Source of the DNA: Streptomyces puniciscabiei
GTDB taxonomy: Bacteria > Actinomycetota > Actinomycetes > Streptomycetales > Streptomycetaceae
Reading direction: 5' to 3'
Length of the DNA: 64,000 nt
Assembly (NCBI RefSeq): GCF_006715785.1
Contig: NZ_VFNX01000007.1
Location: 1 to 64,000, forward strand
The position numbers were made by a program, and so were the translations under genes. The notes beneath the pieces were generated by a model. The model worked only from the letters and a program-made list of their open reading frames with translations, had not been told where the DNA came from and did no database searches. Shown piece after piece: positions 27,341 through 61,947 of this stretch. Position 1 is the first letter of the stretch, and each line of letters starts with the position of its first letter.

Positions 27341-27355
27341 CGCCCCGGGGGACGC

Positions 27356-31072: not shown

Positions 31073-32875
31073 ATGTGTCGGATATTTGGTCACTTTAATG
31101 GCGTGGTGACTCCACGTGAACTGCAGACGGTCGGCGCACTTCAGCGGCACGGTGGCCCCGATGGCCAAGGCAGCGTGCACGACGCGATGTGGTCCATCGG
31201 GAACAACCGGTTGGCCATTGTGGATCTGGACGGCGGCCAGCAGCCGTACGAGCTTCTGGACGGTCGAATAAAAATCGTCTTCAACGGAGAGATTTACAAC
31301 CACGAGGAGCTTCGACAGCGGCTGCGCGCGCGGGGTTACACCTTTCCCGACCGCTGCGACGGCTCGATCCTCCCGGCGCTGTACGACGTGTACGGCGACG
31401 GCTTCACCGAGCACCTGGACGGCATGTACGCGATCGCCGTTCTCGACCAGCGGGCCGAGCCACGGCTCGTGCTCGCCACCGATCACGTCGGCATGAAGCC
31501 GTTGTACTACCGGTGGGATCCGGCATCGGGAGCGCTTCATTTCTCCTCGGAGATCCCCGCCCTGCTCGCGTTCGACGCGGTGTCGGGCACCGCCTGGACG
31601 CCGGGTCTGGAGGCATACCTCGCGACCAAGACGCCCTTCGGCGAGCAGACGATGTTCGCCGACATCAAGGTGCTGCCGCCGGCGACCACCGCGGTCTGCG
31701 ACCGGGCCTCGGGGTTGCGTATGTTGCGCCGGAACCCGCCCCGGCCCGGCCCGTTGCCCGGCGACGACACACCCGGCCGGCTGCGCGCGATGCTTCGCAC
31801 AGAGGTGCGCCGGCTGCGGATGGCCGACGTCCCGCTCGCCTCGATCACCTCCGGCGGGCTCGACTCCGGCCTGGTCACGGCATTCGCCGCAGAGGACGGC
31901 CGCGATCTTCACACCTTCAATCTCTCCTACAAGGGCTCCTGGCCCGGGGACGAGCGGCGGTACGCGCGCCAGATCGCGGAGCGGACCGGGGCGGTCTACC
32001 ACCAAGTGGAAATCGATCCGGCCACCTTCCCCGACCTGGTGGCGGACGTCGTGTGGCACCTGGGCCAGCCGAACGCCGACCCGATCACGCTCAGCACCTA
32101 CGCCCTGTTCCGCGCCGTACGGGACGCCGGCTTCAAGGTCGCGCTGACCGGCGACGGCGCGGACGAGGTCTTCGGCGGCTACGACCGGATGCGCGCGGCG
32201 GCACAGGCCCCCGGTCCGTGGCGTGCGGCGTACGCGGATGCCCTCGCCGTCGCCCCCGCGCGGCTGAGAGGCCTGCTCTACACCAAGGACTACGCCGCCG
32301 AGATGGGCCTGGCGGCACCGCTTCCCGAGAGGGCGAGCCGTCTCCTTCGCGACGACGGCGCCGACCGGTTGGGACGGATCACCGCATTCGAGATGGAATA
32401 CCGCCTGCCCGCGTATCACCTGCGCCGCGTGGATCACCTGAGCATGGCGCACTCGGTCGAGGTGCGGCTGCCGTACTGCCAACGCGACATCGTCGCCTTC
32501 GGGCGGGCGCTGCCCGACCACATGCGCATCAGCGGCGGGCGGGTCAAGCGGGCGCTGTACGCCGCCGCCTCCGGACTGCTGCCCAAGGACGTCCTCAACC
32601 GCCCGAAGCAGCCCTTCACCCTGCCTCTCACCGCGATGCTCGCCCCTGGGCAGCCGCTGTGGGACTTCGCCCAGGACATGCTCGGCGCGAGCCGGCTGCG
32701 CTCTGCGGGCCAGATCGAGCCCGGCGCCGTACGGAATCTCTTCCAAGCCCAGGCCGACCGTCCGGACGACACCGCGGCGCTGACGATATGGGCCCTGCTG
32801 GTGCACGAAGTCTGGCGGGAGCAGTTCCGGCCGGGCGCACGGGCGGGAGCCGCGATGGGAGCGATGGTCGCGTGA
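31073..32875 (+). CDS. glutamine-hydrolysing asparagine synthetase-like amidotransferase (AsnB type)
   Basis: 600 aa with both AsnB domains. The N-terminal class II glutaminase has the Cys2 nucleophile (MCRIFGHFNG) and NGEIYNHEELR. RHGGPDGQG replaces the usual RGPD. The C-terminal synthetase domain has the pyrophosphate loop in SITSGGLDSGLV and the acceptor-side GDGADEVFGGYDRMR. It converts a carboxylate to an amide, or to an intramolecular amide as in beta-lactam synthetases, via an adenylate. First gene of a four-gene operon whose stop overlaps the next start (GTGA). Position suggests a dedicated biosynthetic step rather than primary asparagine synthesis. Confidence 0.9.
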   Translation: MCRIFGHFNGVVTPRELQTVGALQRHGGPDGQGSVHDAMWSIGNNRLAIVDLDGGQQPYELLDGRIKIVFNGEIYNHEELRQRLRARGYTFPDRCDGSILPALYDVYGDGFTEHLDGMYAIAVLDQRAEPRLVLATDHVGMKPLYYRWDPASGALHFSSEIPALLAFDAVSGTAWTPGLEAYLATKTPFGEQTMFADIKVLPPATTAVCDRASGLRMLRRNPPRPGPLPGDDTPGRLRAMLRTEVRRLRMADVPLASITSGGLDSGLVTAFAAEDGRDLHTFNLSYKGSWPGDERRYARQIAERTGAVYHQVEIDPATFPDLVADVVWHLGQPNADPITLSTYALFRAVRDAGFKVALTGDGADEVFGGYDRMRAAAQAPGPWRAAYADALAVAPARLRGLLYTKDYAAEMGLAAPLPERASRLLRDDGADRLGRITAFEMEYRLPAYHLRRVDHLSMAHSVEVRLPYCQRDIVAFGRALPDHMRISGGRVKRALYAAASGLLPKDVLNRPKQPFTLPLTAMLAPGQPLWDFAQDMLGASRLRSAGQIEPGAVRNLFQAQADRPDDTAALTIWALLVHEVWREQFRPGARAGAAMGAMVA

Positions 32876-33918
32876 TCGGTCACATCGCTTATGCGTCCGG
32901 GAGTCCCTGCCCCACACTCGTCCTGGACGCGCGGCAGTTTCCGAGCGAGAGGGGGCCGCTCCTCGAGGCCCTCACCGAGGTCCGCCGGCGGCTGGTTCTG
33001 GCCGGCGGGGCGCACATACTCAAGATCGCGCTGATCGAGCCTTCGTCGCATCCGCTGTTCGATCTCGACTACCGCTTCATCCAGGCGCTGCCGGACGGTG
33101 TGGCGCGGTTCGATCTGCGTGGCTCGTGCGGGCACTCCGTGCTGTGCTCCGTGATGGCGGCCGGGCGGTCGGGGATGCTTCCCCGGCAGGGCCCCGGGGA
33201 CCGGGTGCGGGTGCACGTCCTCAACAACGGCGATCACCTCGTGTGCGAGACCGAGGAGGCCGACCGAGAGACCGCCAGATGCACGATGTACTTCCTGCAC
33301 ACGCCCCCGGTCCCGGTGACAGGTCTGCTGCTGCGGGACGAGCCGCAGACGACTCTCGACCTGCAGGACGAGAAGGTGACCGTCTCCATGGTCTCCTCCG
33401 GCAACCCGTACGTCTTCGTCGGGGCGCGGGAGGCCGGGGTGGCCGACGCCGCGGAACTGTTCGCCGGGGGGCCCGCCCTGTTCGACCGGCTGGAACGGAT
33501 TCGCGGGGCGGCGGCCCGGTTGCTCGACTGGTCGCCCGACGGCGCCTTCCCCAAGATCGCCGTTGTCGTCCCCGACGGAGCCGGCCGGATAGCGGCTCGG
33601 GCCGTGACCGTGCCCGGCTGGCATCCCACGCTGGCGCTGACCGGCGCGGTCTGCCTGGGGGCGGCGAGTTGCATTCCGGAGACGATTCCCTGGCTCGCGG
33701 CCCGGGACGTGGGATGTCTCGGCGGGCAGGTGGACATCCGGACCACCGGCGGAAGCACGGCGGTCACCGCCACCACCCGGACCGGCGATGGCCGGACCGA
33801 ACTCGCCTGGGTCGCCGTGGGCAACAAGACCGTCCGGTACCACGGCCCGTTCTTCCCCGAGCCGCTCGCCCGTTTCCAACCCAGGGAGTTCGGAGAATGT
33901 CTGTCGCTTCCCGCCTGA
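32872..33918 (+). CDS. PrpF/DAP-epimerase-fold isomerase
   Basis: 348 aa from GTG 32872 in a GTGA overlap. The pseudo-symmetric PrpF-like fold is indicated by the Cys86 loop DLRGSCGHSVLCSV (family C-G-H/N motif), by MVSSGNPYVFVGAREAGV, and by the second-half GAVCLGAASCIPETIP. PrpF proteins shift double bonds or epimerise alpha-carbons of substrates with an acidic C-H, such as 2-methylaconitate or 4-oxalomesaconate, and are distant relatives of diaminopimelate epimerase. In this cluster it may isomerise or racemise an amino-acid or unsaturated diacid precursor. Coupled to AsnB upstream and overlapping the next gene by 22 bp. Confidence 0.82.
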   Translation: MIGHIAYASGSPCPTLVLDARQFPSERGPLLEALTEVRRRLVLAGGAHILKIALIEPSSHPLFDLDYRFIQALPDGVARFDLRGSCGHSVLCSVMAAGRSGMLPRQGPGDRVRVHVLNNGDHLVCETEEADRETARCTMYFLHTPPVPVTGLLLRDEPQTTLDLQDEKVTVSMVSSGNPYVFVGAREAGVADAAELFAGGPALFDRLERIRGAAARLLDWSPDGAFPKIAVVVPDGAGRIAARAVTVPGWHPTLALTGAVCLGAASCIPETIPWLAARDVGCLGGQVDIRTTGGSTAVTATTRTGDGRTELAWVAVGNKTVRYHGPFFPEPLARFQPREFGECLSLPA

Positions 33919-35048
33919 TTCGCACAGAGGACGTCGTCCGCACGGTCGGGCCGACCCTCGCGCCGCCGACCCTGGACATGTTGCGCGAGTCCGATGCGCA
34001 CACCGCCGTCACCGGCAAGCCCGACACGTCGGTGCTGTCGAGACTGCGGGCTTCGGGACTGCTCGCGACCGCCGTCCCGGAGGCCTACGGAGGCGCCGGG
34101 GGTGACGCCGCGGCCGTCAACCGGGTGGTGGAGCAGGTGGCGACGGTGAACCCGTCCGTGGCGATCATCCTGTTCCAGCATTTCGCGGTGTGCGCGCGCA
34201 TCGACGAATGGGGCACCGACGAGCAGAAGGCGAGGTACCTGCCGGCATTGGCCTCGGGCGAGTTCCTCGCCGCTTCGGCGTGGAGCGAGACAGGGGCGGG
34301 TGCCGCCAAGAAGCGGCTGGCTTCCACCGCCGAGCGGCTCCCGGGCGATCGATGGCTGCTGAGCGGCGCGAAGGCGTTCACCACCGGCGCCGGTGTCGCG
34401 GACCTCTACCTCGTGCTCGTGCAGACGTCACAGGCACAGGACGACCCGCGCAGCAGCTACGGCTCGGCCGGCCAGACCTTCTTCCTCGTGCGGGGCGACA
34501 ACCCCGGGCTGATCCCCGACCTGAGCCTGGACCTGGTGGGCATGCGCGGATCCGCGACGGGCTTCGTCCAGCTCAGCAACTGCGAAGTCACCGACGACGA
34601 TCGCTTGGGACCGCTCGGACACGCGACGGCCATCATTGCCGGCGTGCGGGAGAGCGGCGCGACGCTCGGCGCGGTGTCGATCGGCATCGCCCAGGCGGTG
34701 TACGACCTCGCCGCCCAGCACCGCGGCCGCCTCGACGGGGCACGGGCCCAGACCGTCCGGCACCAGATGGTCGCGCTCAGCACGCTGCTGGAGTCGGCGC
34801 GTGCCTTCGTCGTGCGCGCGGGCCACCGATCGTCGGACGATCCGGGCCGGACCACGCTGCAGGCCAAGCTGCACGCCTCCGCCGCCGCCGAGGAGATATG
34901 CCTCGAGGTCTCCCGCATGCTCGGGTCTGCCGGGTACGTCGTCGATCACCGGCTGAACCGGTTGATCGCCGATGCCCGGGCGGTCGCTCTGATGGGTCCG
35001 ACCAATGAGCTGTGCCGAGAGTTGGTGGCGGAGTCATGGGAGAGCTGA
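33897..35048 (+). CDS. acyl-CoA dehydrogenase-fold flavoprotein lacking the usual catalytic Glu
   Basis: 383 aa from ATG 33897, preceded by GGAG. N-terminal helical domain (LLATAVPEAYGGAGGDAAAV), central beta domain (ASAWSETGAGA, LLSGAKAFTTGAGVADLYLV) and C-terminal helical FAD domain are all present. The C-terminal YEGT-type motif that carries the catalytic Glu of short-chain dehydrogenases is replaced by ALMGPTNELCRELV. This is typical of the DszC/monooxygenase-like branch, so it may be a flavin monooxygenase or oxidise a non-CoA substrate such as an N-OH or C-N bond. Overlaps the amidohydrolase start. Confidence 0.85.
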   Translation: MSVASRLIRTEDVVRTVGPTLAPPTLDMLRESDAHTAVTGKPDTSVLSRLRASGLLATAVPEAYGGAGGDAAAVNRVVEQVATVNPSVAIILFQHFAVCARIDEWGTDEQKARYLPALASGEFLAASAWSETGAGAAKKRLASTAERLPGDRWLLSGAKAFTTGAGVADLYLVLVQTSQAQDDPRSSYGSAGQTFFLVRGDNPGLIPDLSLDLVGMRGSATGFVQLSNCEVTDDDRLGPLGHATAIIAGVRESGATLGAVSIGIAQAVYDLAAQHRGRLDGARAQTVRHQMVALSTLLESARAFVVRAGHRSSDDPGRTTLQAKLHASAAAEEICLEVSRMLGSAGYVVDHRLNRLIADARAVALMGPTNELCRELVAESWES

Positions 35049-36445
35049 GCCGGGAACGTGCCGATCTCGTGGTGACCGGGCGCCTCGTCACGCCAACGGG
35101 CGTGCGGCCGGGCGCGGTTGTTGTGTCCGCGGGCCGCATCGGCGCCATCACCGACATCGATGAGGCCCCCCCGGGAGTGCCACGGCTCGATGCCGGTGAC
35201 GCCTACGTCCTGCCCGGGCTGATCGACTCACATGTGCATTTCCGCACGCCGGGCCTGGAGCACAAGGAGGACTGGGAGCACGCCGGCCGGGCCGCCGTGG
35301 CGGGCGGCGTCACCACTGTCATCGACATGCCGAACACGAGGCCTCCGGGCTTGACGCCGGACGCGATAGCGGCGAAGGCCGCGTTGGTGGCGGGGTCATC
35401 GCTGGTCGACTACCGGTTCCATCTGGGTGCCGACCCGGATCGACCCGAACTGCTCGCCGACCTCGACCCCGCGATCGCCACCAGCGCCAAGGTCTTCATG
35501 GCCGGGCATCAGACCGCGCCGACGGTCGTACGGGACCGGGACCAGCTGGAGAGGATCTTCGCCGCCGCCGCTGCCGGCGGCGTGCGGCTGGTGCTGCACG
35601 CCGAGCGGGACACCCTGTTCACGCTGCTCGACGACGCGCGCGGGCGGCTTCGGGACTACGCCGCCTACGAACGCTCACGGCCGCGCAGCGGTGGAATCGC
35701 GGCCGTGGCCGATGTCATCGGGCTTGTGCGCCGGTACGGAACGCAGGCGCACATCCTGCACGTGTCCAGCGCGGAGGAGGTCGACCTGCTCGCGGCCGCG
35801 CACGCCGACGGGCTGCCGCTCACCTTCGAGGTGACCGCGCACCACCTGTCGTTCACCGACCGCGACACGCTGCGGACCGGAGCGCGTACCCGTCTGGCGC
35901 CGGCCATCCGCTCCGCGGCCGACCAGGACCGGCTCTGGGCGGCCTTGCGCTGCGGTGAGGTCGCCACACTGGGCAGTGACCACGCCCCGCACACCATGGC
36001 GGAGAAGCTCCTGCCGATACCGGACGCTCCGCCCGGGATTCCCGGCGTGCAGGAACTCGCCGTCGCCGTCTGGACCGGGATGCGCCGACGGTGGCTCGAC
36101 GAATCCTCCGACGTGGCGATCATGCGACTCGTTGATCACCTGGCGGCCAGGCCGGCAGAGCTTTTCCGCCTGCCGGGGAAGGGCCGCCTGGAGCCGGGCG
36201 CCGACGCGGACATGGCGATCTTCGGCCCGGATGATCAGTGGATGCTTTCCGCGCACGACGTACACGCCAAGTGCGGCTGGTCGGCATATGAGGGATGGAC
36301 GATGGCCGGCAAGGTGCTGACCACGATCAGGGCGGGAGAGGTGGTCTGGAACGCGGGCGACCGGAGCTTCGGCAGCCCCACCGGACGCTGGCTTCCGGCC
36401 GGGATGTCGCGGCGACCGCTCACGACGGAGGGCGCGCGGCCGTGA
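35036..36445 (+). CDS. dihydroorotase/allantoinase-fold amidohydrolase
   Basis: 469 aa from ATG 35036; a start at 35012 lies deep in the upstream gene and has no site. Zinc ligands are recognisable: DSHVHFR (His66, His68), the carboxylatable Lys in ATSAKVFMAG, His in LVLHAERD, His in AHILHVSS, and the catalytic Asp in LGSDHAPH. PGLIDSHVHFRTPG and VIDMPNT are textbook cyclic-amidohydrolase motifs. Family members open or close ureide and imide rings (dihydroorotate, hydantoin, allantoin). As last gene of the operon it likely acts on a ureido, cyclic imide or N-carbamoyl intermediate. Confidence 0.9.
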   Translation: MGELSRERADLVVTGRLVTPTGVRPGAVVVSAGRIGAITDIDEAPPGVPRLDAGDAYVLPGLIDSHVHFRTPGLEHKEDWEHAGRAAVAGGVTTVIDMPNTRPPGLTPDAIAAKAALVAGSSLVDYRFHLGADPDRPELLADLDPAIATSAKVFMAGHQTAPTVVRDRDQLERIFAAAAAGGVRLVLHAERDTLFTLLDDARGRLRDYAAYERSRPRSGGIAAVADVIGLVRRYGTQAHILHVSSAEEVDLLAAAHADGLPLTFEVTAHHLSFTDRDTLRTGARTRLAPAIRSAADQDRLWAALRCGEVATLGSDHAPHTMAEKLLPIPDAPPGIPGVQELAVAVWTGMRRRWLDESSDVAIMRLVDHLAARPAELFRLPGKGRLEPGADADMAIFGPDDQWMLSAHDVHAKCGWSAYEGWTMAGKVLTTIRAGEVVWNAGDRSFGSPTGRWLPAGMSRRPLTTEGARP

Positions 36446-36559
36446 CGCGCACCGTCGAAACCTAGGACGCGGGTCGGCGGTGCGGGACGTGCCCTTGTCC
36501 AGGGGCGGGCTCGGGTGCGCCGCCAGCCCTCCTGCAGGCTGAGCCGGCAGGCCCCGACG

Positions 36560-37400
36560 GGATGAAGACGTGCCGGATTCCTGGACGGTGTTCCAGGCCG
36601 GCGCGGAGGGAAAGGCTGTTGCGGGCGGAGGCGGGCATGGTGATCTCCTGTCCGTCTCCCACCGGCAGCGCGCCGTGGCTCCAGGTCGTCTCCGGCGTCT
36701 TTCCCCGAACTCACGGTCGTTCGAGCGGGTCCAGGACCGGGTGCTCCGGCGGCGCACCCCTTCGGCCGGCAGCATCCTGCGGGACCTGGCTGCGGCCGGC
36801 TCCGATCCCAGCCGCTGTGCCTGAGCAGCCAGTGCGTCCAGGGCCCGCTGCGGCTGACTGGCAGACGACGGCCGTGAGCAGGGCGGCGGCGACGCGGCGG
36901 ACGCGTCCGAACCGGCCGGTCGTCGCGCGAGGTCCCGGGGCACGACGGACCTGCCGGGGTGGCATCAGGACCGTCCGGGACGTGCCTGCGTATCCCACGC
37001 AGGTCATGGTCGCGCCGACACGGCGGTCGCGCACCTCGGTGGGCGGTCGCCTGCCGAGGGCGCGGGTCGGCGACGCACCCCCCGCGAGCGGCTCCTGGGC
37101 GGACTCATCCGCCGCGGCCGACTCGCCGTCCGCCTGCAGCGTGAGCCGGCCCGGTGGTGGCAGTTCGACCAGGCCGGCTGACCCCGGAGCGTTCGGCTTC
37201 GGCGATCCGACGCGTGCGGCCCTGCCGGCCCAGGTCCCCCAAGCCGGCCGGGCCCCAACGGTTGAACCGGTGGAGTCGGCGGCGGACCGTCTTGCGGCTG
37301 CGCCTCAGCTGATCCGCGACGGCAGGCACTCGGTGTCCGGGGTGACGGCAGAACCTGGTGCGGGGTGCGGGATTCCTCTTTCGCCGGGGTGATGTCCTGG
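36560..37400 (-). pseudogene. decayed IS630-family transposase
   Basis: The gap 36446-37558 has no intact gene. On the minus strand the helix-turn-helix of an IS630 transposase is clear at about 37330-37180 (VPAVADQLRRSRKTVRRRLH, then RFNRWGPAGLGDLGRQGRTR). Its continuation is broken over several frames (PPPGRLTLQADGES, GRSQV, RRMLPAEGVRRRSTRSW, DREFGE). The DDE catalytic part is not recognisable. No terminal repeats found. Confidence 0.7.
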
Positions 37401-37558
37401 TGGGGTGGGGGTGGTCCGGCTGCTCGGGGGCGGGTGCTGGCCGTGGTGTTGCGGGCACGGATGATCGAGCCGCTGCCGCCGACAGCAGTGCTCTGGGTGC
37501 CCCCGGCCGACGGCCGGGGAGGGAGTTCGACGACAGGGCCCGGGGTCGCGGGGTGTTC

Positions 37559-38779
37559 CTAGCAGGGGTCCGACGGGCCGGGGGCCGTCGTGGCGCGCAA
37601 CAGGTCGCGTACGAGGGCGATCCGGTGGTCCGCTTCCTGCTCGGACGCGGCGTCGATCACGACATGGCCGTGCCGGCTTCCGGAGTTCCTGATCTCCGGG
37701 ACCGTGTCGCCCGGCGTGAAGGGGAACTTCAGCTCGTGCACGAAGGGAAGCGCGCGGATGTCGTCCAGCCCCTCCACGGACACGAGGCGTCCGGGACGGA
37801 GCTGGAAGAAGGAGACGCACCCCACCCGGTGGGCGGTGTCGACCTGGACCGGTTTGCCGTTGAGCGCGCGGAAGATGGCCGCCTCGATGTCGAACCCGGA
37901 GGCGAGCGCGATGGCCCGATGGATCCGGTCGCCCGGGGCGCGGGTCTGCGACTCGACGATCCTTGGACCGTCCGGCGTCAGGATGACCTCCGTGTGTGCC
38001 GGGCCGAACCGGTAGCCGGTCTCGCCCAGGAACCGGATGACCAGGTCGGCGACCGCCGCCCGATCGGGTTCGGCCAGGGACGCGGGGTGCACGTGCCCGA
38101 TCTCGGTGAAGCCGGGCGGCGGCGTCTTCCGCTTGGCCGTGACGCCCACGAGGTGGTGGGAACCCTGCACGGTCAGCGTCTCGACGCTGAACTCGGGCCC
38201 GCGCAGATACTCCTCGATCAGCACCGGACCCGTATAGCGCTGGCCGGCGAGCTGCTCCTCCCAGTCGTCCATGTCCGGCTCCTCGTGGATGAGCCGTACC
38301 CCGCGGCTGCCGGAGAGAAGGGCCGGCTTGGCCACGACGGGCAGCTCGAACGTCGGCAACAGCGCCCGGGCCTGCCGCGCCGATTCGGCCACGGTGGCCC
38401 GCACCGGCGAGAGACCGCGCTCGCGCAGCAGCTGCCGCATCGCCGTCTTGTCGTTGATGACGCGCAGCGCCTGCGGTGGGTTCGGGGCGAGCCCCAGCGC
38501 GTGCGCCTCCTCGCAGACGGGGAGCTGGGTGTCCTCGTTACCCAGGTGCAGGACATGCGAGACGCCCAGCCGCGTGGCCGTCTCGGCCACCAGCCGGCGC
38601 AGCCCGGCGACGTCCCGGAAGTCGGTGTACAGCAGTTCCTCGGAGTACCGCGCGACCTCGTCCCGGTGGTCCTGCGGGATGCGGTCCGGGTCCCAGATGG
38701 AGAAGACCCGAAAGCCCTCCTCGGTGGCCTTGCGCACGTACGCCCGCCACGGCATCACCATGAGGATCTTGTCTGTCAT
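37559..38779 (-). CDS. ATP-grasp carboxylate-amine ligase (L-amino acid ligase-like), no. 1
   Basis: 406 aa from ATG 38779, with AAGGGAG 9 nt upstream; the frame is open further upstream but that part shadows the MFS gene. The pre-ATP-grasp domain begins MTDKILMVMPWRAYV. ATP-grasp features: VVAKPALLSGSRGVRLI (P-loop-like), LIEEYLRGPEFSVETL (adenine region), AHTEVILTPDGPRIVESQTR (metal ligands). The canonical ExNxR motif reads ESQTR, as in BacD-type dipeptide ligases, where Asn is also replaced. It forms an amide between an acyl phosphate and an amine. Third gene of the minus-strand operon with the regulator and exporter. Confidence 0.88.
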   Translation of the reverse strand: MTDKILMVMPWRAYVRKATEEGFRVFSIWDPDRIPQDHRDEVARYSEELLYTDFRDVAGLRRLVAETATRLGVSHVLHLGNEDTQLPVCEEAHALGLAPNPPQALRVINDKTAMRQLLRERGLSPVRATVAESARQARALLPTFELPVVAKPALLSGSRGVRLIHEEPDMDDWEEQLAGQRYTGPVLIEEYLRGPEFSVETLTVQGSHHLVGVTAKRKTPPPGFTEIGHVHPASLAEPDRAAVADLVIRFLGETGYRFGPAHTEVILTPDGPRIVESQTRAPGDRIHRAIALASGFDIEAAIFRALNGKPVQVDTAHRVGCVSFFQLRPGRLVSVEGLDDIRALPFVHELKFPFTPGDTVPEIRNSGSRHGHVVIDAASEQEADHRIALVRDLLRATTAPGPSDPC

Positions 38780-38826
38780 CGGTGCGCTCCCTTCACTCGT
38801 ACGGCCTGCGGTGGTCCTCATGGCTG

Positions 38827-40110: not shown

Positions 40111-40186
40111 GTATGCCTCGAAATCCTGGGGGGACGGCGAAGGGAGCCGGCATCCGGCTCCGAGGTCGGCCGACCGGACATGCCGT

Positions 40187-43353: not shown

Positions 43354-43356
43354 TCG

Positions 43357-44763
43357 GTGAAAAAGCGCATCCTGCTGGTGCACAGCCGGTCCGGTCCGCC
43401 CCTTGATTTCGCGCTGCCCCGGCTGGCCGCCCGGGCGGAGATCCACGTGCTCGCGTTCCAGCCGCTGCCGGCCGGGACGGAGGAGTACTGCGCCTCGGTC
43501 ATCCCCGCCCACGAGCGGCGGCTGAAGGGGGACGAGCTGGTCGACGCGATCGTGGAGGCGGCCGGCCAGGTCGGTGCGGACGCGCTGTGCGGCCTGTCGG
43601 AGTACACGGTGGTTCCGGTGGCCCTGGCGGCCGACCGGCTGGGCCTTCCCGGCCCGGGTCGGGGGGCGGCGTCATCGCGCGACAAGCGACTGATGCGGGC
43701 CGCGTGGGCGAAGGCCGGGGTGCCGCAACCGGCGTACCGGACGGTGGCTTCGGCGGCGGACCTGCGCCAGGCGTTCCGCGAGTTGCGGCCGCCGCTGTTG
43801 CTGAAGTCGGCGTGGGGCGCCGGCTCGACCGCGCAGCTCGTCATCTCCTCCGAGGAGCAGATCGGGCCGGCGTGGGAGGAGGCGACGTCGGTGATGAGGA
43901 CGGCGGATGCGACGAACGTCCTGATGCTGGAGGTGCCGGGCGCGGAGAACGACTTCCTCGCCGAGGAGATCATCCCGGGGACGACGCGGTCCTGGTGGGA
44001 GGACGGAAGCGGCTACGGTGACTATCTGAGCGTGGAGGGAATAGTCGTCGAGGGTGTGTATCACCCGGTCTGCATCACGTCGAGGCTGCCGACGATCCCG
44101 CCCTTCATGGAGCTGTGCAACATAGCGCCGTGCGAACTCCCGGTACGGCTGCAGCGTGCGATCGAATCGGTGGCTCGCGCCGCGGTCGATGCTCTCGGGC
44201 TGCGGACGTGTGGTACGCACACGGAGATCAAGCTGATGGAGGACGGGGGCCTCGCGCTGGTCGAGTCCGCCGCGCGGTTCGGCGGCGCCACGATCCTCGC
44301 GCAAATAGAGCATGTCTACGGCCTCGATCTGGTCGGGATGCTGGCGGATGCGCTGCTCGGGCTCCCGGCCGGCCCGCCGGATTCCATGCTGACCCAGCAT
44401 GACGCGAAGGGGGCCGCAAGCACGCTGTCCCTCCTCGCCACGAACGCCGCGGGGGACCCGTGGTCGAAGGACCTGGTCTGGGACAGTCGCGTGGTCGATT
44501 GGCAGTCCTTGGTGACTCCCGGCACGAGCATCGAGACCGCGCCGGGACTGACGATCCCGGACGGGACGCCCATGCCGAAATACGAGCCCAGCGGCGGGAA
44601 GATGGGGCTCGGCGGAGTCCTCTACATGACGTCGGCGGATTCCGGGACGCTCGTGCACGACGCGTACGCGGTTCTGAACGGCCTGGAGGATGCGCTGGCG
44701 CAAGGCTGGCATGAGCGGACCGCACCCGTGATTCCGGAAGGAAATGGGGGGTTGAGCACATGA
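43357..44763 (+). CDS. BacD-like ATP-grasp L-amino acid ligase, no. 2
   Basis: 468 aa from GTG 43357, 3 bp after the methyltransferase. ATP-grasp domain includes LLLKSAWGAGSTAQLVIS, LAEEIIPGTTRSWWEDG and the metal-binding region THTEIKLMEDGGLALVESAA followed by RFGG. From memory this closely parallels the bacilysin dipeptide ligase BacD (THTEIKLM ... ESAARFAG), and a C-terminal PGTSIETAPGL also has a BacD counterpart. It should ligate two amino acids through an aminoacyl phosphate. This is the best candidate for the central condensation step. Overlaps the dioxygenase start (ATGA). Confidence 0.9.
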   Translation: MKKRILLVHSRSGPPLDFALPRLAARAEIHVLAFQPLPAGTEEYCASVIPAHERRLKGDELVDAIVEAAGQVGADALCGLSEYTVVPVALAADRLGLPGPGRGAASSRDKRLMRAAWAKAGVPQPAYRTVASAADLRQAFRELRPPLLLKSAWGAGSTAQLVISSEEQIGPAWEEATSVMRTADATNVLMLEVPGAENDFLAEEIIPGTTRSWWEDGSGYGDYLSVEGIVVEGVYHPVCITSRLPTIPPFMELCNIAPCELPVRLQRAIESVARAAVDALGLRTCGTHTEIKLMEDGGLALVESAARFGGATILAQIEHVYGLDLVGMLADALLGLPAGPPDSMLTQHDAKGAASTLSLLATNAAGDPWSKDLVWDSRVVDWQSLVTPGTSIETAPGLTIPDGTPMPKYEPSGGKMGLGGVLYMTSADSGTLVHDAYAVLNGLEDALAQGWHERTAPVIPEGNGGLST

Positions 44764-45638
44764 GCGGCATCGACATCCGGCGCATCGGCGGCCGAATAGG
44801 GGCCGAGATCACCGGTATCGACCTGGGCGCCACGATCTCGGATCAGCTGTTCTCCGAGATCAAGAAGGCATTCCTCGACTACAAGGTGCTGTTCTTCCGT
44901 GACCAGGACATCAGTGACGAACAGCAGTTGGCCTTCGCCGGCCGGTTCGGCCCGCTCACCCACCGGCATCCGCTGATGCGGACCGCCGAGCAGAGCCCGC
45001 AGGTCCTCGTCGTGGACGGGGAGGATCAACGCGCCAACCACTGGCACTGCGACATCAGCTTCACCGAGACGCCGTCCCTGGGAACCTCGCTGCGGAGTGT
45101 GGTGCTGCCGCCCTACGGCGGAGACACGCTGGTGGCAAGTGGCGAGGCCGGCTACCGGGATCTCCCCGCCGAGTTGCGGGAGATCGCCGATCGGCTGTGG
45201 GCGGTGCACACCAACCGGGCGGAACAGCCGCGCCTGGGCACCAGGCGTGGTGACGAAGTGCGCCGGGCGTTCCTGGCCAAGCGGTTCGAGACCGCGCACC
45301 CGGTCGTCCGGGTCCACCCGGAGACGGGCGAACCGTCCCTGTTCCTCGGCGGCTTCGCACAGCGACTGGTGGGAATGAGTCTGCGGGAATCGCGGCCGAT
45401 CATCGATGTGCTGCAATCCTACGCACTGCGTCCGGAAAACCAGGTGCGCTGGAACTGGCGGCCGGGGGACGTGCTCATTTTCGACAATCGCTGCACGCAG
45501 CATTACGGCGTCGACGACTACGACGGCCACCGGCGGCTGCTGCACCGGGTCTCGGTCACCGGCGATGTGCCTGTCGGCCTGGACGGCAAACGCAGCTACG
45601 TGATCCATGCCGGCGACGGGGACGAGGAAGGGCAATAG
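44760..45638 (+). CDS. TauD/TfdA-type Fe(II)/2-oxoglutarate dioxygenase
   Basis: 292 aa. The iron site is complete: HxD at His96-Cys-Asp98 in NHWHCDISF, and the distal His in CTQHYGVDDY. The 2-oxoglutarate-binding Arg is in HRRLLHRVSV. The N-terminus (IRRIGGRIGAEITGIDL) is typical of TauD enzymes. It probably hydroxylates, desaturates or epoxidises an amino-acid side chain, the usual role of family members in such clusters. Coupled to the ligase upstream and 2 bp from the aldolase downstream. Confidence 0.92.
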   Translation: MSGIDIRRIGGRIGAEITGIDLGATISDQLFSEIKKAFLDYKVLFFRDQDISDEQQLAFAGRFGPLTHRHPLMRTAEQSPQVLVVDGEDQRANHWHCDISFTETPSLGTSLRSVVLPPYGGDTLVASGEAGYRDLPAELREIADRLWAVHTNRAEQPRLGTRRGDEVRRAFLAKRFETAHPVVRVHPETGEPSLFLGGFAQRLVGMSLRESRPIIDVLQSYALRPENQVRWNWRPGDVLIFDNRCTQHYGVDDYDGHRRLLHRVSVTGDVPVGLDGKRSYVIHAGDGDEEGQ

Positions 45639-45640
45639 AC

Positions 45641-46420
45641 ATGGCGACACCGGATTCGTTCGCCCGGCGGCTTCGCGCCCGCGAGCAGCTTGCCGGTTAC
45701 TGGATCGCGTGTGACAACCCGGTCGCGGTCGAACGCATCGCCCGGCTCGGCTATGACTACATCGGGGTCGACGGGCAGCACGGGGTGCTGTCGCAGCCGG
45801 GCTGGAGCGCCGCGATGATGGCGGTGGACGCGGGACAACGCGCGGCGGGCCTCATCCGGGTTCCCTCCGTGGATCCTGTGGCCATCGGCGCCGCTCTGGA
45901 CACCGGTGCGCGTGGCGTGATCGTGCCCATGGTCGAAACACCGGAGCAGGCCGCGGCGGCGGTGCGGGCCACCAGGCACTGGCCTGCCGGAAGCCGCAGT
46001 CTGGCCGGCCCCGTGCGGGCACAGTTCCGGCTCGGTGACGTCCCGGCCGAGATCGACGAGGGCGTGGTCTGCATCGTCATGATCGAGACGAAGGCCGCCC
46101 TGGACAACCTGGAGAAGATCTGCGCGACTCCGGGCCTGGACGCCGTCTACCTGGGACCGGCCGACCTGTCCGTGGCTCTGGGCGGACGGTACTTCGGTGA
46201 TCCCGCGGTGCAGCCGGCGCTGCTGGAAGCGACGACCGCCATCGCCGAAGCCGCACGACACGCGGGTATCGCAAGCGGCATCCACTGCCTGGACGGGGAG
46301 AGCGCGGCCCGCTGGCTGTCGGACGGTTACACCTTCGCCACCATTTCCAGCGATATCACCCACCTGGAACAGGTCGCGGCCGCGCACCTGGCAGCGGCCC
46401 GGGGGGCGGGAGTCTCATGA
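45641..46420 (+). CDS. HpcH/HpaI-family aldolase
   Basis: 259 aa, a complete class II (metal-dependent) HpcH aldolase fold. General-base region YIGVDGQHGVLS; substrate Arg in AAGLIRVPS; GARGVIVPMVETPEQA; metal ligands in VMIETKAALDN and AVYLGPADLS. The family cleaves or forms C-C bonds of 2-keto-acid aldols, such as pyruvate plus an aldehyde. In a biosynthetic operon, aldol formation that builds or removes a carbon fragment is plausible. Its stop overlaps the start of the next gene (ATGA). Confidence 0.9.
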   Translation: MATPDSFARRLRAREQLAGYWIACDNPVAVERIARLGYDYIGVDGQHGVLSQPGWSAAMMAVDAGQRAAGLIRVPSVDPVAIGAALDTGARGVIVPMVETPEQAAAAVRATRHWPAGSRSLAGPVRAQFRLGDVPAEIDEGVVCIVMIETKAALDNLEKICATPGLDAVYLGPADLSVALGGRYFGDPAVQPALLEATTAIAEAARHAGIASGIHCLDGESAARWLSDGYTFATISSDITHLEQVAAAHLAAARGAGVS

Positions 46421-47343
46421 GCCCGGAAGGCCGGATCTACCAGTCCATGGAGGAACTGGTCGGCGGCACTCCCCTGCTGCGGTATCGGCTGCCGGGTGTC
46501 CCGGCCGGTGCGCGGACCCTGGCGAAGCTCGAGATGCTGAACCCGCTCGCCAACGTCAAGGACCGGGCGGTGCTCTACATGTTCCGTGCCGCCCAGCAGT
46601 CGGGGGAGCTGCCGCCAGGGGGGACGGTCATCGAGTGCTCGTCCGGGAGCACCGGCATCTCCCTTGCCGCGCTGTGCCTCCTGCATGGCCACCGCTGCAT
46701 CATCGTCATGCCGGACAACGCCACGGTGGAACGGCAGCTGATCCTGCGCAAGCTGGGGGCTGAGATCAAGTTCGTGCCCCATGGCGACGGATTGCCGGCC
46801 GCATGGGAATACGCGGAGCGGCTGCAGAAGTCCATACCCGGCTCCTGGCTGCCGCACCAGGACACCAACCCCGCCAATGTGCTGGCGCATTATGAGACCA
46901 CCGGCCCCGAGCTGTGGCGGGATACCGCGGGCGACATTGATGTGCTGGTCTGCGGCGTCGGCACGGGCGGGACGCTGACCGGGGTCGCACGTTTCCTCAA
47001 GGAACGACGCGATGTCCATGTGGTCGCGGTCGAGCCCACCAGGTCCGCCGTCCTTTCGGGAGGCGAAGCGGGACCCCATTGCATCCCCGGAATCGGGGCG
47101 GGGTACGTCTCGGAAATCATGGACGTTTCGCTCATCGACGAGGTGATCGCGGTGTCGGACGACGACGCGGCCACCACGAGCCGGGAGATCACCCAGGCCA
47201 CCGGACTGCTCGCCGGCATATCGTCGGGGGCGGCGGCACATGCCGCCCGTATCGTGTCCAGGCAGCCGCAATGGTCTGAGGCGACGATCGTCTCGGTGTT
47301 TCCCGATTCCGGTGAACGCTATCTCTCGGTCGGGGCGGATTAG
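46417..47343 (+). CDS. PLP-dependent CysK-like enzyme, no. 2
   Basis: 308 aa. LVGGTPLLRYRL, Schiff-base Lys in NPLANVKDRAVLYM, substrate loop CSSGSTGISLA, phosphate cup GVGTGGTL, C-terminal ISSGAAAHAA and FPDSGERYLS. This is nearer to cysteine synthase/cystathionine beta-synthase than enzyme no. 1, with SSGSTG in place of TSGNTG. The nucleophile could be sulfide, a thiol or a nitrogen nucleophile. Having two such enzymes in one operon, plus a serine acetyltransferase nearby, argues for a beta-substituted alanine building block. Last gene of the operon. Confidence 0.9.
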   Translation: MSPEGRIYQSMEELVGGTPLLRYRLPGVPAGARTLAKLEMLNPLANVKDRAVLYMFRAAQQSGELPPGGTVIECSSGSTGISLAALCLLHGHRCIIVMPDNATVERQLILRKLGAEIKFVPHGDGLPAAWEYAERLQKSIPGSWLPHQDTNPANVLAHYETTGPELWRDTAGDIDVLVCGVGTGGTLTGVARFLKERRDVHVVAVEPTRSAVLSGGEAGPHCIPGIGAGYVSEIMDVSLIDEVIAVSDDDAATTSREITQATGLLAGISSGAAAHAARIVSRQPQWSEATIVSVFPDSGERYLSVGAD

Positions 47344-47867: not shown

Positions 47868-49208
47868 TCAGTCCGCTGTGGCCATGGCGACGGCGGACTC
47901 ACCGTGGGCCGGATGACGCTGAGGACGGTCCGGGAGGGCAATACGTGCGGGCCGCACCACGCCGTCCTCACCTCGCACCTGGATCCGGATGGTGTCCCGC
48001 AGGACCTCCTCGGCACGGCGGACCGCCATGTCGCCGGTAGCCGCAGCAGCGGCCACCAGCCCCAGACGGTCCCAGGAATCCTCGACCGCGCGGACCGTGT
48101 CGCCCGGCTTCACCCACATCTGGGCCGCCAGGACACCCGGCTCCGCTCGCGCATCCTCTACCCCTGTTATCGATTCCACCTGTCCCGGGCCGCTGACCAG
48201 GAATCGAACGGCGGCGGCGCCACGCGCCCGCGGCGGCCGGGAAATTTCGGGCACCAGCCTGAACGGCCAGCCGAGCGCGTAGGTTTCCAGATCGATTCCG
48301 TAGGCACCGCGCACGAGTTGGTTGATGGCGCCGCCACCGAAACGGTTGTGCGACTCTATGACCACCGGCCCCCGCTCACCGAGCCTGAACTCGGTGTGCG
48401 CGGGCCCGTCCCGCAGCTCCATGGCATCGAGGAAACGACTCACGGCGTCCAGCACGCCGGCCTGGGCGGCGTCATCCAGCCGGGTGGGCATGACGTGGGA
48501 GAAAGCCGCGAAACTGTCGGCGGCGAGCTGCGTCTCGGTGATTCCGATCAGCACATGACGGCCGTCGAAGCTGAAGGATTCCGCGCTGAATTGAGGTCCG
48601 TCGACATATTCTTCCATCATGAAGCCATCAACGGAGAACGGCATGGTCGTACGGGCCATGGGATGCCCGCTCAGCGCACTCACCGTGTGCCATGCCGTGT
48701 CCGCCGCTTCAGGGCCGGTGACCAGGGACACCCCGTAACTTCCCGTGCCGTTCGTCGGCTTGATGACGAACGGATAGCCGTGTTCGTCGGCGAACTCGTC
48801 GAGGTCACGTCGCTTCGCCAGCGGCGCCGCGGCGGCGGTGGCCGCTCCGTTGCCGGCCGCGACCAGGCGACGGCGCATGGCCAGTTTGTCCCTGAAGCGC
48901 CTGGCCGCCTCGAGCCCCGTGCCGCCCAGGCCGAAGAGATCATTGAGCAGGCCCGCGCCTTCCAGGCCGGGCTCCGTGAGGGAGACAACGGCGGTGAATC
49001 CCGTTGTCTTCCACAGCTCACGGGCCGCTGTTTCCAGCGCGGTCAGATCCGTGTAGTCCACGGCCCGGACGACGTCGGCCAGTTCGCACGGCGCCTCCGC
49101 AAGTTTCTGGGGATGCTGGAGCACGAGGACGCGCAGGCCCAGGTCCTTCGCCTTTCTCACCGTACCTTCAGTGGCGCCGACGAGGAGCACCGTCGAATCC
49201 GCTTGCAC
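47868..49208 (-). CDS. ATP-grasp carboxylate-amine ligase, no. 3
   Basis: 446 aa from GTG 49208 (GGAGG four bases upstream). N-terminal pre-ATP-grasp fold (STVLLVGATEGTVRKAKDLG), FVIKPTNGTGSYGVSLV, MMEEYVDGPQFSAESFSF, and AHTEFRLGERGPVVIESHNR followed by FGGGAINQLV. The family ExNxR motif reads ESHNR. Distinct in sequence from the other two ligases, so probably a different substrate pair. Last gene of the minus-strand operon after the acetyltransferase and monooxygenase. The product would be an amide, peptide or, by intramolecular attack, a lactam or isoxazolidinone-like ring. Confidence 0.88.
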   Translation of the reverse strand: MQADSTVLLVGATEGTVRKAKDLGLRVLVLQHPQKLAEAPCELADVVRAVDYTDLTALETAARELWKTTGFTAVVSLTEPGLEGAGLLNDLFGLGGTGLEAARRFRDKLAMRRRLVAAGNGAATAAAAPLAKRRDLDEFADEHGYPFVIKPTNGTGSYGVSLVTGPEAADTAWHTVSALSGHPMARTTMPFSVDGFMMEEYVDGPQFSAESFSFDGRHVLIGITETQLAADSFAAFSHVMPTRLDDAAQAGVLDAVSRFLDAMELRDGPAHTEFRLGERGPVVIESHNRFGGGAINQLVRGAYGIDLETYALGWPFRLVPEISRPPRARGAAAVRFLVSGPGQVESITGVEDARAEPGVLAAQMWVKPGDTVRAVEDSWDRLGLVAAAAATGDMAVRRAEEVLRDTIRIQVRGEDGVVRPARIALPDRPQRHPAHGESAVAMATAD

Positions 49209-49263
49209 GCTTCCTCCGCTTTTTCCGGGGCGAGGACGAGATGGCGAGGGACAGGCCGGCCGA

Positions 49264-49977
49264 TCAGGGCATCCACGCTATTTTGGGCAGTGCGTCATGC
49301 GATGTGCGTAATGCTTTTTCAGGTAGCACATGGGTGTCATCGGGTATGTCCGTGAGGACGACGGCTTGTGCCCCGATGACCGCTCTGTGGCCGATGTTCA
49401 CCGGTCCGAGTACGGTGGCGCCGGCACCGAGCACGCAACCGCTGCCGACCACCGGGTGCCGCCGTTCTCCGGGCAGCCTGCGGTTGTCCCGCCGCCAGCC
49501 GACCGCTCCGAGGGTGACCTGGTGATAGATGGTGACGTCATCGCCCACCACTGCTGTCTCGCCGATGACAACGGCCGCACCGTGATCGATGAATACTCTG
49601 CGGCCCAGCGTGGCACCCGGATGGATCTCCGTACCGGTGAGCGCCCGGGCACCTGCCATCAGGGCACGCGCGGTCAGCCGGGAGCCTCGCTTGTGGAGCA
49701 GGTGCGCCACGCGGTGGACGCACAGGGCGGGCAGTGCCGGATGCAGCAGGGCTTCCGCGACCGTTCGTATGGACGGGTCACGCTCGACAATGGTGCGGAT
49801 GTCCTCGATGAAAAGCCGGATCAGGTCCGCCGGTCCGTACCGCTCCGGCGGGTCGGGCTCCCGGGTCGGTTCCTGCCGCCCGCGTTCGGCCAGGAGCCTG
49901 GTGGACAGGACATTCCCCGCCGGTGAGTCGGCATCGTGCCGGGACGGATCTCGGCTGGATCGTCGTCGCCTGTTCAT
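49264..49977 (-). CDS. serine O-acetyltransferase (CysE/EpsC type)
   Basis: 237 aa from ATG 49977 (GGGAGGAC upstream). The left-handed parallel beta-helix is clear: TGTEIHPGATLGRRVFIDHG, VVIGETAVVGDDVTIYHQVT, then GSGCVLGAGATVLGPVNIGH. The catalytic Asp-His (FIDHG) and second His (YHQVTLG) of CysE are present. An extra ~45-residue polar N-terminus precedes the helical domain (RLFIEDIRTIVERDPS). It makes O-acetyl-L-serine from serine and acetyl-CoA, the usual donor for CysK-type enzymes. A cluster-located copy implies a dedicated supply for the two CysK-like enzymes. Confidence 0.92.
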   Translation of the reverse strand: MNRRRRSSRDPSRHDADSPAGNVLSTRLLAERGRQEPTREPDPPERYGPADLIRLFIEDIRTIVERDPSIRTVAEALLHPALPALCVHRVAHLLHKRGSRLTARALMAGARALTGTEIHPGATLGRRVFIDHGAAVVIGETAVVGDDVTIYHQVTLGAVGWRRDNRRLPGERRHPVVGSGCVLGAGATVLGPVNIGHRAVIGAQAVVLTDIPDDTHVLPEKALRTSHDALPKIAWMP

Positions 49978-50016
49978 CGTGTCCTCCCGGCCGTGTGTCT
50001 GGAAACGTCGACGGGG

Positions 50017-51222
50017 TTACGCCGCAAGAGCGGGGACGGCCCACCGAGTGACCTCGTGGAGCGCTGCGTCCTTGCGCCCGCGCAGGCTCATGGCGGTATT
50101 GCGTACGAGCGACCGGACCGTGCCCGTTCCCTGGTCCAGCAGACCCTGGCGGCGGGAGAGGAGCACCACCCGAGTGGTGCGTTCCACGCGCTGCCGCTGG
50201 TACGCGCGAAGCGCGGTACCGAAGTCGCCGCGACCGCCGTTCACGACGTGCGTGCGCAGTTCCGAGGCGAGGACGACGGCGTCTTCGAGCGCCATGTTCG
50301 CCGCTTGTCCGAGGGCCGGGGCCATGGGATGCGCCGCGTCGCCGAGCAGGACCACGCGGCCGTCCACCCACCGCGATACGGGGTCACGGTCGTGGACGTC
50401 CGTGACCGCGACATCGGCGGGGTCGCTGCCGGTGATCAGCCGCACGATCGGGTCGGGCCATCCGGCGATCAGCTCCGCCAACCGTCGTTGCGCCGCCTCC
50501 GGGCCGAGCTGCCGCCAGGTTCCGGGAGGAGCGGTGATCTTGGCCGTCCAGTACAGCGTGCCATCGGCGACCGGAGCGGCGAATATCTGCACGCCGTTGC
50601 CGTTGGCCACGAAGCCCTGGGGCCATGGCCAGTTGCCCGGCGTGTGGCTGCGTACCGATGTGTAGCCGCAGTACCGGGGCGGTCCGTCCGCGAGCATCCG
50701 CTCGCGCACCGACGACCAGATCCCGTCCGCGGCCACCAGCAGGTCCGCGGTGTGGGTGCTGCCGTCGGACAGGTGCACGGAGATCGGGCCGCGATCCGTC
50801 GTCGTGTAGTCGGACACCACCGTGCCCATCCGGACCTCGGCACCGGCGGAGGAGACGGCGGCGATCAGCGATTCCTGTGCGGCCGTGCGCAGGATGGAGA
50901 TCGGCGGGGTTCCGTCGGGCCAGCCCAGTCGGCCGATCTTCTCTCGCGCGAGGATCCGGCCGGAGGCGCTGAGCAGCAGCCGCTCCTCCTCCGGCCCTAT
51001 CACGTGCCCGGATTCGCGGATGCGCCGGCCGAGCCGACGGCTGATGGCGTCCGCGGCGGCAACGCCGTTCGGGTAGAGCATCAGGCCCGAGCCCGCGGGC
51101 TCGAAGCTCTGTGCGCGTTCGACGACCGTCACCTCGAGGCCACAACGTGCGAGTGCGGCCGCTGCGGCCAGGCCGCCGATGCCGCCACCCACGACGGTCG
51201 CGGTGAATCGCTTGGCCGTCAT
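50017..51222 (-). CDS. FAD-dependent monooxygenase (aromatic-hydroxylase fold)
   Basis: 401 aa. Dinucleotide-binding motif VVGGGIGGLAAAAALARCG, the DG motif LLVAADGIWSSVR, and the GD/FAD-ribityl motif GRVVLLGDAAHPMAPALGQA followed by ANMALEDAVVLA. Class A flavoprotein monooxygenase of the PHBH/salicylate-hydroxylase type, NAD(P)H-dependent and soluble. Substrates in this family are usually aromatic or enolic. First gene of the minus operon; 39 bp separate it from the acetyltransferase. Confidence 0.92.
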   Translation of the reverse strand: MTAKRFTATVVGGGIGGLAAAAALARCGLEVTVVERAQSFEPAGSGLMLYPNGVAAADAISRRLGRRIRESGHVIGPEEERLLLSASGRILAREKIGRLGWPDGTPPISILRTAAQESLIAAVSSAGAEVRMGTVVSDYTTTDRGPISVHLSDGSTHTADLLVAADGIWSSVRERMLADGPPRYCGYTSVRSHTPGNWPWPQGFVANGNGVQIFAAPVADGTLYWTAKITAPPGTWRQLGPEAAQRRLAELIAGWPDPIVRLITGSDPADVAVTDVHDRDPVSRWVDGRVVLLGDAAHPMAPALGQAANMALEDAVVLASELRTHVVNGGRGDFGTALRAYQRQRVERTTRVVLLSRRQGLLDQGTGTVRSLVRNTAMSLRGRKDAALHEVTRWAVPALAA

Positions 51223-53633: not shown

Positions 53634-53653
53634 CGGCGACCCGCGCCGCGAAG

Positions 53654-56120: not shown

Positions 56121-56196
56121 GGGTGGTCCTTGTCGGTCGGCGGTGGGCGGGGCCCGGGCCTCCGGGGCGCCGGCGCAGGCGCCCCGGCGGGAGGGG

Positions 56197-61870: not shown

Positions 61871-61947
61871 CGCCCCGGCAGCCGCCGGCCGGCCGCACCA
61901 TCCCGGACCGTCCATCAGCAACAACTGTTCACGAAGGGTAAGAACAC

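Follow-up and report, generated by a model that had tools for sequence, protein, structure and literature searches.

The window analysed here is the first 64 kb (64,000 nucleotides) of a 148,558-base contig from the 9.15 Mb genome of Streptomyces puniciscabiei. Its positions 31073-51222 hold 16 genes with open frames in four divergent blocks, which span 31073-36445 and 41216-47343 on the forward strand and 37559-41011 and 47868-51222 on the reverse strand (Table 1), and in both forward blocks adjacent genes overlap or sit no more than 3 bases apart. We regard it as near certain that this region is a biosynthetic gene cluster lacking a nonribosomal peptide synthetase (NRPS), and a peptide is its likely product type. 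The leftmost block encodes an AsnB-type amidotransferase, a PrpF-family isomerase, an acyl-CoA-dehydrogenase-fold flavoprotein (ACAD) and a dihydroorotase-like cyclic amidohydrolase (DHO), here called the cassette, and most of our interpretation turns on these four proteins.

An earlier note on this DNA had described fourteen genes in four operons. Its coordinates and every gene that it named are present with open frames and the four blocks stand, but the gene count rises to 16; it named neither PrpF, ACAD, DHO, CysE nor the two cysteine-synthase homologues (PALP1 and PALP2), which are the genes most informative about the product. Its statement that no NRPS is present agrees with the Pfam results, in which none of the 16 cluster proteins showed a domain for adenylation, condensation or a carrier (the AraC regulator being scanned as a 160-amino-acid part). 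A carrier protein gene lies outside the cluster, at 53370-53633.

Table 1. Features of the cluster at 31073-51222 of the window and the matches on which each assignment rests.
Feature	Position	Strand	Basis
AsnB-type glutamine-dependent amidotransferase, 600 amino acids	31073..32875	+	Pfam Asn_synthase 242 bits; asn_synth_AEB 333 bits (cut-off 267, passed)
PrpF-family isomerase, 348 amino acids	32872..33918	+	Pfam PrpF 53 bits; predicted fold; K51, C86
ACAD, acyl-CoA-dehydrogenase-fold flavoprotein without catalytic Glu, probably a monooxygenase	33897..35048	+	Pfam; Gly replaces Glu
DHO, dihydroorotase-like cyclic amidohydrolase	35036..36445 (frame opens 35012)	+	Pfam Amidohydro_1; PRK02382 311 bits; active-site residues
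Unconserved stretch with winged helix-turn-helix remnant	36446..37538; remnant 37105-37458	- (remnant)	HTH_29 34.6 bits; blastn gap in L007, L060, L109
ATP-grasp ligase 1, L-amino-acid-ligase type, motif ESQTR	37559..38779	-	LAL_C2 domain
Major facilitator superfamily (MFS) exporter	38827..40110 (frame opens 40230)	-	Pfam MFS_1 100 bits
AraC-family regulator	40187..41011	-	HTH_18 81.5 bits
PALP1, divergent cysteine-synthase homologue	41216..42262	+	PALP 146 bits; relatives near CysE
S-adenosylmethionine-dependent methyltransferase, Fur6-like	42241..43353	+	8har_A Fur6 419 bits over 351 residues
ATP-grasp ligase 2, BacD-like, motif ESAAR	43357..44763	+	Sequence and predicted fold
TauD-like Fe/2-oxoglutarate dioxygenase	44760..45638	+	Pfam TauD 219.5 bits; HxD and distal His motifs kept
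HpcH/HpaI-type aldolase	45641..46420	+	Pfam 117.5 bits; nearest PDB 1dxe, 2-dehydro-3-deoxygalactarate aldolase
PALP2, cysteine-synthase homologue, SSGSTG replacing TSGNTG	46417..47343	+	PALP 227 bits
ATP-grasp ligase 3, L-amino-acid-ligase type, motif ESHNR	47868..49208	-	LAL_C2 domain
CysE-type serine O-acetyltransferase	49264..49977	-	cysE 170 bits (cut-off 211); EpsC 168 bits (cut-off 150, passed)
FMO, group A flavin adenine dinucleotide (FAD) monooxygenase	50017..51222	-	FAD_binding_3 82 bits; HpxO 204 bits (cut-off 500); 3rp8 141 bits

Genome contigs were scanned for the ATP-grasp 2 family, giving 53 loci, each taken with up to 10 kb of flank per side. Two of these loci share the gene set wholly or in part: Streptomyces NRRL S-340 (L007) has all 16 genes (81-95% amino acid identity) with the blocks in a different order, and Streptacidiphilus pinicola (L008) has ten of them in one block; the remaining 51 are without the gene set within their flanks. 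In addition, a Streptomyces NBC_01383 plasmid (L060) carries all 16 (69-94%) in the order of the window, and a second contig (L109) has the left ten genes within the 20 kb examined. Blastn pieces of at least 150 bases place the left edge of the conserved DNA at 30.9-31.0 kb of the window (L060, L108, L109) and the right edge at 51.3 kb (L060, L008); L007 is consistent with these borders, although its sequence runs on for just 250 bases to the right of the block and breaks off at the left end. Inside the block, 36.4-37.5 kb and an intergenic stretch from 47.3 to 47.8-48.0 kb are unmatched. Ratios of nonsynonymous to synonymous substitution rates (dN/dS) across the 16 genes range from 0.10 to 0.41 against L007 and from 0.11 to 0.34 against L060, values that speak for purifying selection. 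The recurrence of all 16 genes at two other loci, the borders and the low dN/dS together argue that the cluster is more than a chance assembly, and the NRPS-free cluster of the earlier note does travel together. The winged helix-turn-helix remnant in 36446-37538 resembles a piece of a transposase. The same cluster is found on plasmids of 138 and 140 kb, sizes close to that of the contig.

The N-terminal Cys and SGGLDS of AsnB are kept in most relatives. The PrpF model (predicted local distance difference test score, pLDDT, 92) has as its nearest folds methylitaconate isomerase (Mii), PrpF itself, including the complex with trans-aconitate (2pw0), and LigU; matches to DapF and O-ureidoserine racemase rank lower. 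K51 and C86 are invariant in 37 aligned rows and match by motif K73 and C107 of Shewanella oneidensis PrpF; in that enzyme K73 variants failed and C107 variants were weak in vivo, and the purified variants had no detectable activity (PMC5690661). A PrpF-family protein of Ustilago (U. maydis) converts cis- to trans-aconitate (PMC4720413). The window PrpF is thus predicted, from alignment and modelled structure, to have the fold and the catalytic Lys and Cys of PrpF polycarboxylate isomerases.

The nearest PDB entries to DHO are dihydroorotase, L-hydantoinase and allantoinase. All 46 aligned rows have HVHFR, MPNT, the metal-binding Lys and three His, and 45 of them have DHAPH; the HFR and MPNT patterns are absent from the allantoinase and hydantoinase aligned with it. 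In dihydroorotases HVHFR and MPNT bind the carboxylate of orotate, and DHO has both the metal ligands and these carboxylate-binding Arg and Asn residues. ACAD carries M-G-P-T where the aligned acyl-CoA dehydrogenases have Y-E-G-T, and M-G-P, with Gly replacing Glu, is found in 47 of 48 rows, the remaining row being frame-broken. This Glu is the catalytic residue of acyl-CoA dehydrogenases, and its loss rules out ACAD as a canonical member of that family.

Relatives of PrpF (E<=1e-60) were found in 39 of 392 Streptomyces genomes. A draw of 391 genomes across the order gave 44 with such a relative, every one of them from the same genus; the two draws share genomes and both counts take in the genome of the window. 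We examined 67 PrpF loci, namely 38 of the 41 non-window places of the 392-genome scan, 16 (a part) from the order draw, two weaker matches, two from S. pinicola and nine annotated plasmid loci, and these were classified by their best tblastn matches in 12-41 kb, some of the classes being provisional. The cassette is complete, with AsnB, ACAD and DHO beside PrpF, at 55 of the 67 loci and in at least four settings, and it therefore behaves as a unit. Three of these 55 loci are of the window type (class A). In class B (20 loci) TauD, HpcH and PALP2 relatives precede the cassette; class C (13) has a cupin and a PALP3-CysE pair, class C' (seven) a cupin only and class D (seven) a pseudouridine-phosphate glycosidase, and five loci are unassigned. 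A flavin reductase gene or fusion accompanies the cassette at 15 of the 20 class B loci, at five of seven in class D and at all but one of the 13 in class C, the exception stopping at its contig end. Since a flavin reductase so often accompanies the cassette in these three classes, a role of ACAD as a reduced-flavin monooxygenase is the likelier one.

Among the other PrpF loci, seven have AsnB and DHO but no ACAD next to them, two have AsnB only and three have none of the partners. Three of the seven trio loci (L174, L181 and L173, the last lying at the end of its contig) show no ACAD homologue in the stretch; at the other four a distant homologue (31-33%) is separated from the trio by some 6 kb. 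The existence of trios without an ACAD homologue suggests that oxidation is seemingly not needed to form the ring, and a scheme in which AsnB, PrpF and DHO make a ring that ACAD then tailors fits the seven loci where ACAD is not adjacent. At L173 (5800-19800), on an S. pinicola contig, the DHO, AsnB and PrpF relatives lie near xanthine-dehydrogenase-type subunits, XdhC and a carbamoyltransferase. At L187 (3300-13400) AsnB, PrpF and DHO relatives stand beside an MbnB/TglH/ChrH-type protein, a nitroreductase and an ACAD homologue, neighbours that suggest a peptide-modification setting.

The earlier note had presented the cluster as built around three BacD-like ligases. For ATP-grasp 2 the likeness holds: the note had compared its ESAAR motif with BacD, and the protein matches 3wo1 with an E value of 1e-51. 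Its AlphaFold2 model (pLDDT 93) has BacD as all of its top three Foldseek matches (3vmm, TM score 0.82, 28% identity), and E290, E303 and R307 are invariant across 24 rows. ATP-grasp 2 shares the ATP-grasp fold of BacD and the L-amino acid ligases BL00235 and RizA, but differs from BacD in sequence, scoring 176 bits against a cut-off of 850 for the alanine-anticapsin ligase equivalog. The site putatively equivalent to Trp332, named in entry 3wo1, appears to be Ala in ATP-grasp 2. Bacilysin clusters contain bacABC-type families, which were not seen by Pfam among the 16 proteins of the window.

ATP-grasp 1 and 3 are of the L-amino-acid-ligase type, as judged by their LAL_C2 domains. The three metal motifs read as the note had given them, but they are common to relatives and are no special alteration: ESHNR is present in 15 of 16 ATP-grasp 3 rows, the odd row being an ATP-grasp 1 match, and among the 25 ATP-grasp 1 rows listed at least 11 read ESQTR or ESQAR. 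Class C relatives of ATP-grasp 1 differ at this motif; those at L127, L128 and L130-L132 have RSR or RSQ in place of ESQ, and because the metal-motif Glu is lost these proteins may, on sequence grounds, be inactive or changed ligases. Nor do the ligases define the cluster, given that 51 of the 53 loci with BacD-like ligases are without the set within flanks of up to 10 kb. ATP-grasp 1 and 3 instead follow a wider core, recurring in other clusters with TauD, HpcH, PALP2, AsnB, PrpF, ACAD and DHO together with FMO and CysE.

The remaining enzymes could connect a ring to an amino acid backbone. PALP1 relatives (E<=1e-70) are present in 11 of 392 Streptomyces genomes, that of the window included. 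A CysE homologue lies about 3 kb or less from PALP1 in all eight loci examined other than those of the window type, and an ATP-grasp homologue in five of them; PALP1 is therefore likely to be an O-acetylserine-using enzyme. In other Streptomyces (L191-L195) a PALP1 homologue, an ATP-grasp and CysE form a unit with no ring cassette in the 20 kb examined, and three of these five units contain a protein resembling reductases of flavin mononucleotide (FMN). Of 35 PALP2 rows, 19 read SSGSTG, namely the window and its relatives of classes A and B, and the others read TSGNTG, a difference by which the substrate of PALP2 is probably not that of cysteine synthase. Both proteins fall short of the SbnA cut-off (PALP1 123 and PALP2 216 against 350 bits), and no SbnB-type gene occurs among the 16.

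For the methyltransferase the next PDB match after Fur6 scores 57.5 bits. A paper about an aromatic C-methyltransferase reportedly names Fur6 in connection with furaquinocin; the naphthalene polyketide genes are absent from the 16 of the window. A link to furanomycin through Fur6 was rejected, no such cluster having been found in the openly licensed literature and Fur6 pointing to the furaquinocin C-methyltransferase. FMO falls in the aromatic-hydroxylase group. HpcH was also considered as a staphyloferrin-type citrate synthase and rejected, being closer to pyruvate aldolases (123 bits) than to SbnG (4tv5, 74 bits).

Taken together, these data lead us to favour, with clearly less than even confidence, the reading that the cluster makes an NRPS-independent small peptide carrying a heteroaromatic amino acid; we infer the identity of the ring, every substrate, the order of the steps and the product. 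PrpF would isomerise an unsaturated polycarboxylate of the tricarboxylic-acid-cycle type, the best candidate being the conversion of cis- to trans-aconitate, and AsnB would amidate one carboxylate with nitrogen from glutamine. DHO, working in the ring-closing direction, would then give a six-membered cyclic imide with its carboxylate placed as in dihydroorotate. In this way the monoamide of trans-aconitate could become 2,6-dihydroxypyridine-4-carboxylate (citrazinate, a 1-deaza-orotate), which is isosteric with orotate. ACAD, without the base of the dehydrogenases, and FMO may hydroxylate the ring, and the Fur6-like methyltransferase may C-methylate it. CysE would supply O-acetylserine, and PALP1, perhaps with PALP2, would couple the electron-rich ring to the aminoacrylate to form a heteroaryl-alanine, which TauD may hydroxylate. 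ATP-grasp ligases 1-3 would form the amide bonds, the BacD-like ATP-grasp 2 making the final dipeptide-type bond, and the MFS protein would export a product whose synthesis AraC presumably regulates.

Several observations weigh against this reading. DHO lies below the dihydroorotase equivalog cut-off (311 against 452 bits), relatives of DHO and AsnB act on many substrates, and FMO resembles the hydroxylases of urate, salicylate and 6-hydroxynicotinate more closely than that of 2,6-dihydroxypyridine (40 bits). No flavin reductase is present among the 16 genes of the window, which represents class A, or in five of the 20 class B loci. Just three of the seven trio loci are wholly without an ACAD homologue, and one of these is cut off by the end of its contig. 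The genes around them look more like metabolism than biosynthesis: a histidinol dehydrogenase and a permease (L181), a multicopper oxidase (L174) and xanthine-dehydrogenase-type genes (L173). The ten-gene block of S. pinicola has no cassette alongside, relatives of AsnB (64%) and DHO (71%) lying on other contigs. Three ligases are many for a dipeptide, and HpcH, TauD and PALP2, which precede the cassette in class B, are unneeded by the aconitate route and poorly explained. The class B core may, moreover, supply a building block to enediyne-type clusters, a possibility raised by its position among enediyne-type genes at several loci.

Another explanation is a dapdiamide-like pathway, which we consider unlikely. 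Here PALP and CysE would make 2,3-diaminopropionate or another beta-substituted alanine, AsnB would amidate a fumarate- or aconitate-type acid whose geometry PrpF sets, TauD would epoxidise it and the ATP-grasp ligases would couple these units with an amino acid. The pathway would form no aromatic ring, and DHO would hydrolyse or close an imide only in passing. The dapdiamide set likewise combines AsnB, TauD, PALP and ATP-grasp families, and ATP-grasp 3 and ATP-grasp 1 score 24 and 19 bits with the profile of dapdiamide A synthase, but these scores are far below its 840-bit cut-off. The 16 genes differ from that set in having no SbnB-type, adenylating or NRPS gene and in adding PrpF, DHO, ACAD, HpcH, a methyltransferase and CysE. 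PALP1 and PALP2 both miss the SbnA cut-off while its SbnB-type partner is absent, and the C-nucleoside type of class D, the active site of DHO, the aromatic-type FMO and the C-methyltransferase would all go unexplained.

Less probable still is a true pyrimidine, orotate- or uracil-like, which PALP and CysE would turn into a willardiine-like uracilyl-alanine that is then peptidylated. The residues of a dihydroorotase, an enzyme that closes a ring next to a carboxylate, are those expected for de novo pyrimidine synthesis, and the pseudouridine-glycosidase homologue of class D fits as well. A plasmid of Priestia aryabhattai (L070, 10000-24000) carries the cassette together with CysK, CysE, an ATP-grasp, a homologue of pseudouridine-phosphate glycosidase and a quinone-type dihydroorotate dehydrogenase (DHODH); this DHODH speaks for a pyrimidine as well as for the ring of the favoured reading, and it could be either a pathway enzyme or a means of self-resistance. 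The genes for carbamoyl-phosphate synthase and aspartate carbamoyltransferase are, however, absent from the 16, and AsnB and PrpF would have no role in such a route. The window differs from pyrimidine synthesis in drawing its nitrogen from AsnB amidation, in its PrpF isomerase and in an ACAD-fold flavoenzyme that replaces DHODH.

On several Streptomyces plasmids (L061, L062, L064, L065, L066, L068) the class B core, TauD-HpcH-PALP2-AsnB-PrpF-ACAD-DHO-FMO, lies among genes annotated as enediyne-type, with a chromoprotein and a tyrosine aminomutase nearby in two (L062/L064 and L061/L065) and a condensation protein and related genes near the core in L066 and L068. Kedarcidin contains an aza-tyrosine unit, and these settings would agree with an aza-tyrosine-like or other aryl amino acid of that kind, the cluster of the window peptidylating the alpha-amino acid; we think this improbable. 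Shedding the two ring oxygens of an imide would need reductases, and none was seen. Searches of the openly licensed literature for azatyrosine and kedarcidin gave nothing on topic among the matches listed. The least probable of all is an island for catabolism or primary metabolism, breaking down polycarboxylates, purines or pyrimidines, that has an unrelated ligase operon as its neighbour: the PrpF, DHO, HpcH and TauD families are common in catabolism and the ACAD-free trios have metabolic-looking neighbours, but the blocks of the window remain linked despite reshuffling, the three ligases, MFS and AraC lie within the conserved borders, and just 39 of the 392 Streptomyces genomes carry a PrpF relative at E<=1e-60.

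To the right of the cluster, 51705-62361 encodes a FabF-type ketosynthase, a carrier protein, a phosphopantetheinyl transferase (PPTase), a SnoaL-like protein, a Streptomyces antibiotic regulatory protein (SARP)-type regulator, an acyltransferase and a second carrier protein, and is probably a neighbouring polyketide cluster outside the conserved block. The FabF, carrier protein and PPTase genes (51705-54385) were considered as cluster members and rejected, lying outside the conserved DNA in L060 and L008, the two comparisons that reach past the right border. Directly upstream, 24824-30813 encodes cytochrome bd oxidase subunits I and II followed by two ATP-binding cassette (ABC) transporter-like frames, probably cydABCD. 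Farther left are a gene for an Imm49-family immunity protein (14614-15606) and one for a 1496-amino-acid protein with a golvesin C-terminal domain (8093-12583). Five flank proteins were scanned with PADLOC, without any result relevant to the cluster.

Returning to the ring-bearing peptide, the class D loci also bear on the proposed ring. All seven have a homologue of the pseudouridine-phosphate glycosidase, a YeiN-like C-glycosynthase, and six a homologue of haloacid dehalogenase (HAD) phosphatases; Pfam found no C-glycosynthase gene among the 16 of the window, and it is present only in the class D relatives. YeiN-like enzymes C-glycosylate small rings in minimycin and showdomycin, joining them to ribose, and class D shares this enzyme family with those clusters, but in their pathways the ring arises from glutamine on a system of NRPS type (PMC8724604), whereas here a free-standing cassette would do so.

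A more speculative extension, to which we give a low probability, is that AsnB, PrpF and DHO constitute an undescribed 'deaza-pyrimidine' pathway leading from aconitate to 1-deaza-orotate, a mimic of pyrimidine synthesis whose ring would be used in several kinds of natural product: heteroaryl-alanine peptides in the window, C-nucleosides imitating orotidine phosphate in class D and units near enediyne genes in class B. No paper with a matching gene set was found in a search limited to openly licensed literature, and the term citrazinic acid was not found there among the matches listed. We know of no recorded route of this kind to a pyrimidine-like aromatic ring. The cluster is a variant of the NRPS-independent ATP-grasp peptide clusters, with a proposed and possibly new ring pathway inside. 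If these proposals are correct, the PrpF-marked cassette of about one in ten Streptomyces genomes sampled (39 of 392) would feed a pyrimidine-like ring to peptides and C-nucleosides. It would then offer a genome-mining handle for antimetabolite antibiotics and a directly testable three-enzyme reaction, as well as a reading for clusters that searches based on NRPS and polyketide synthase genes may overlook.

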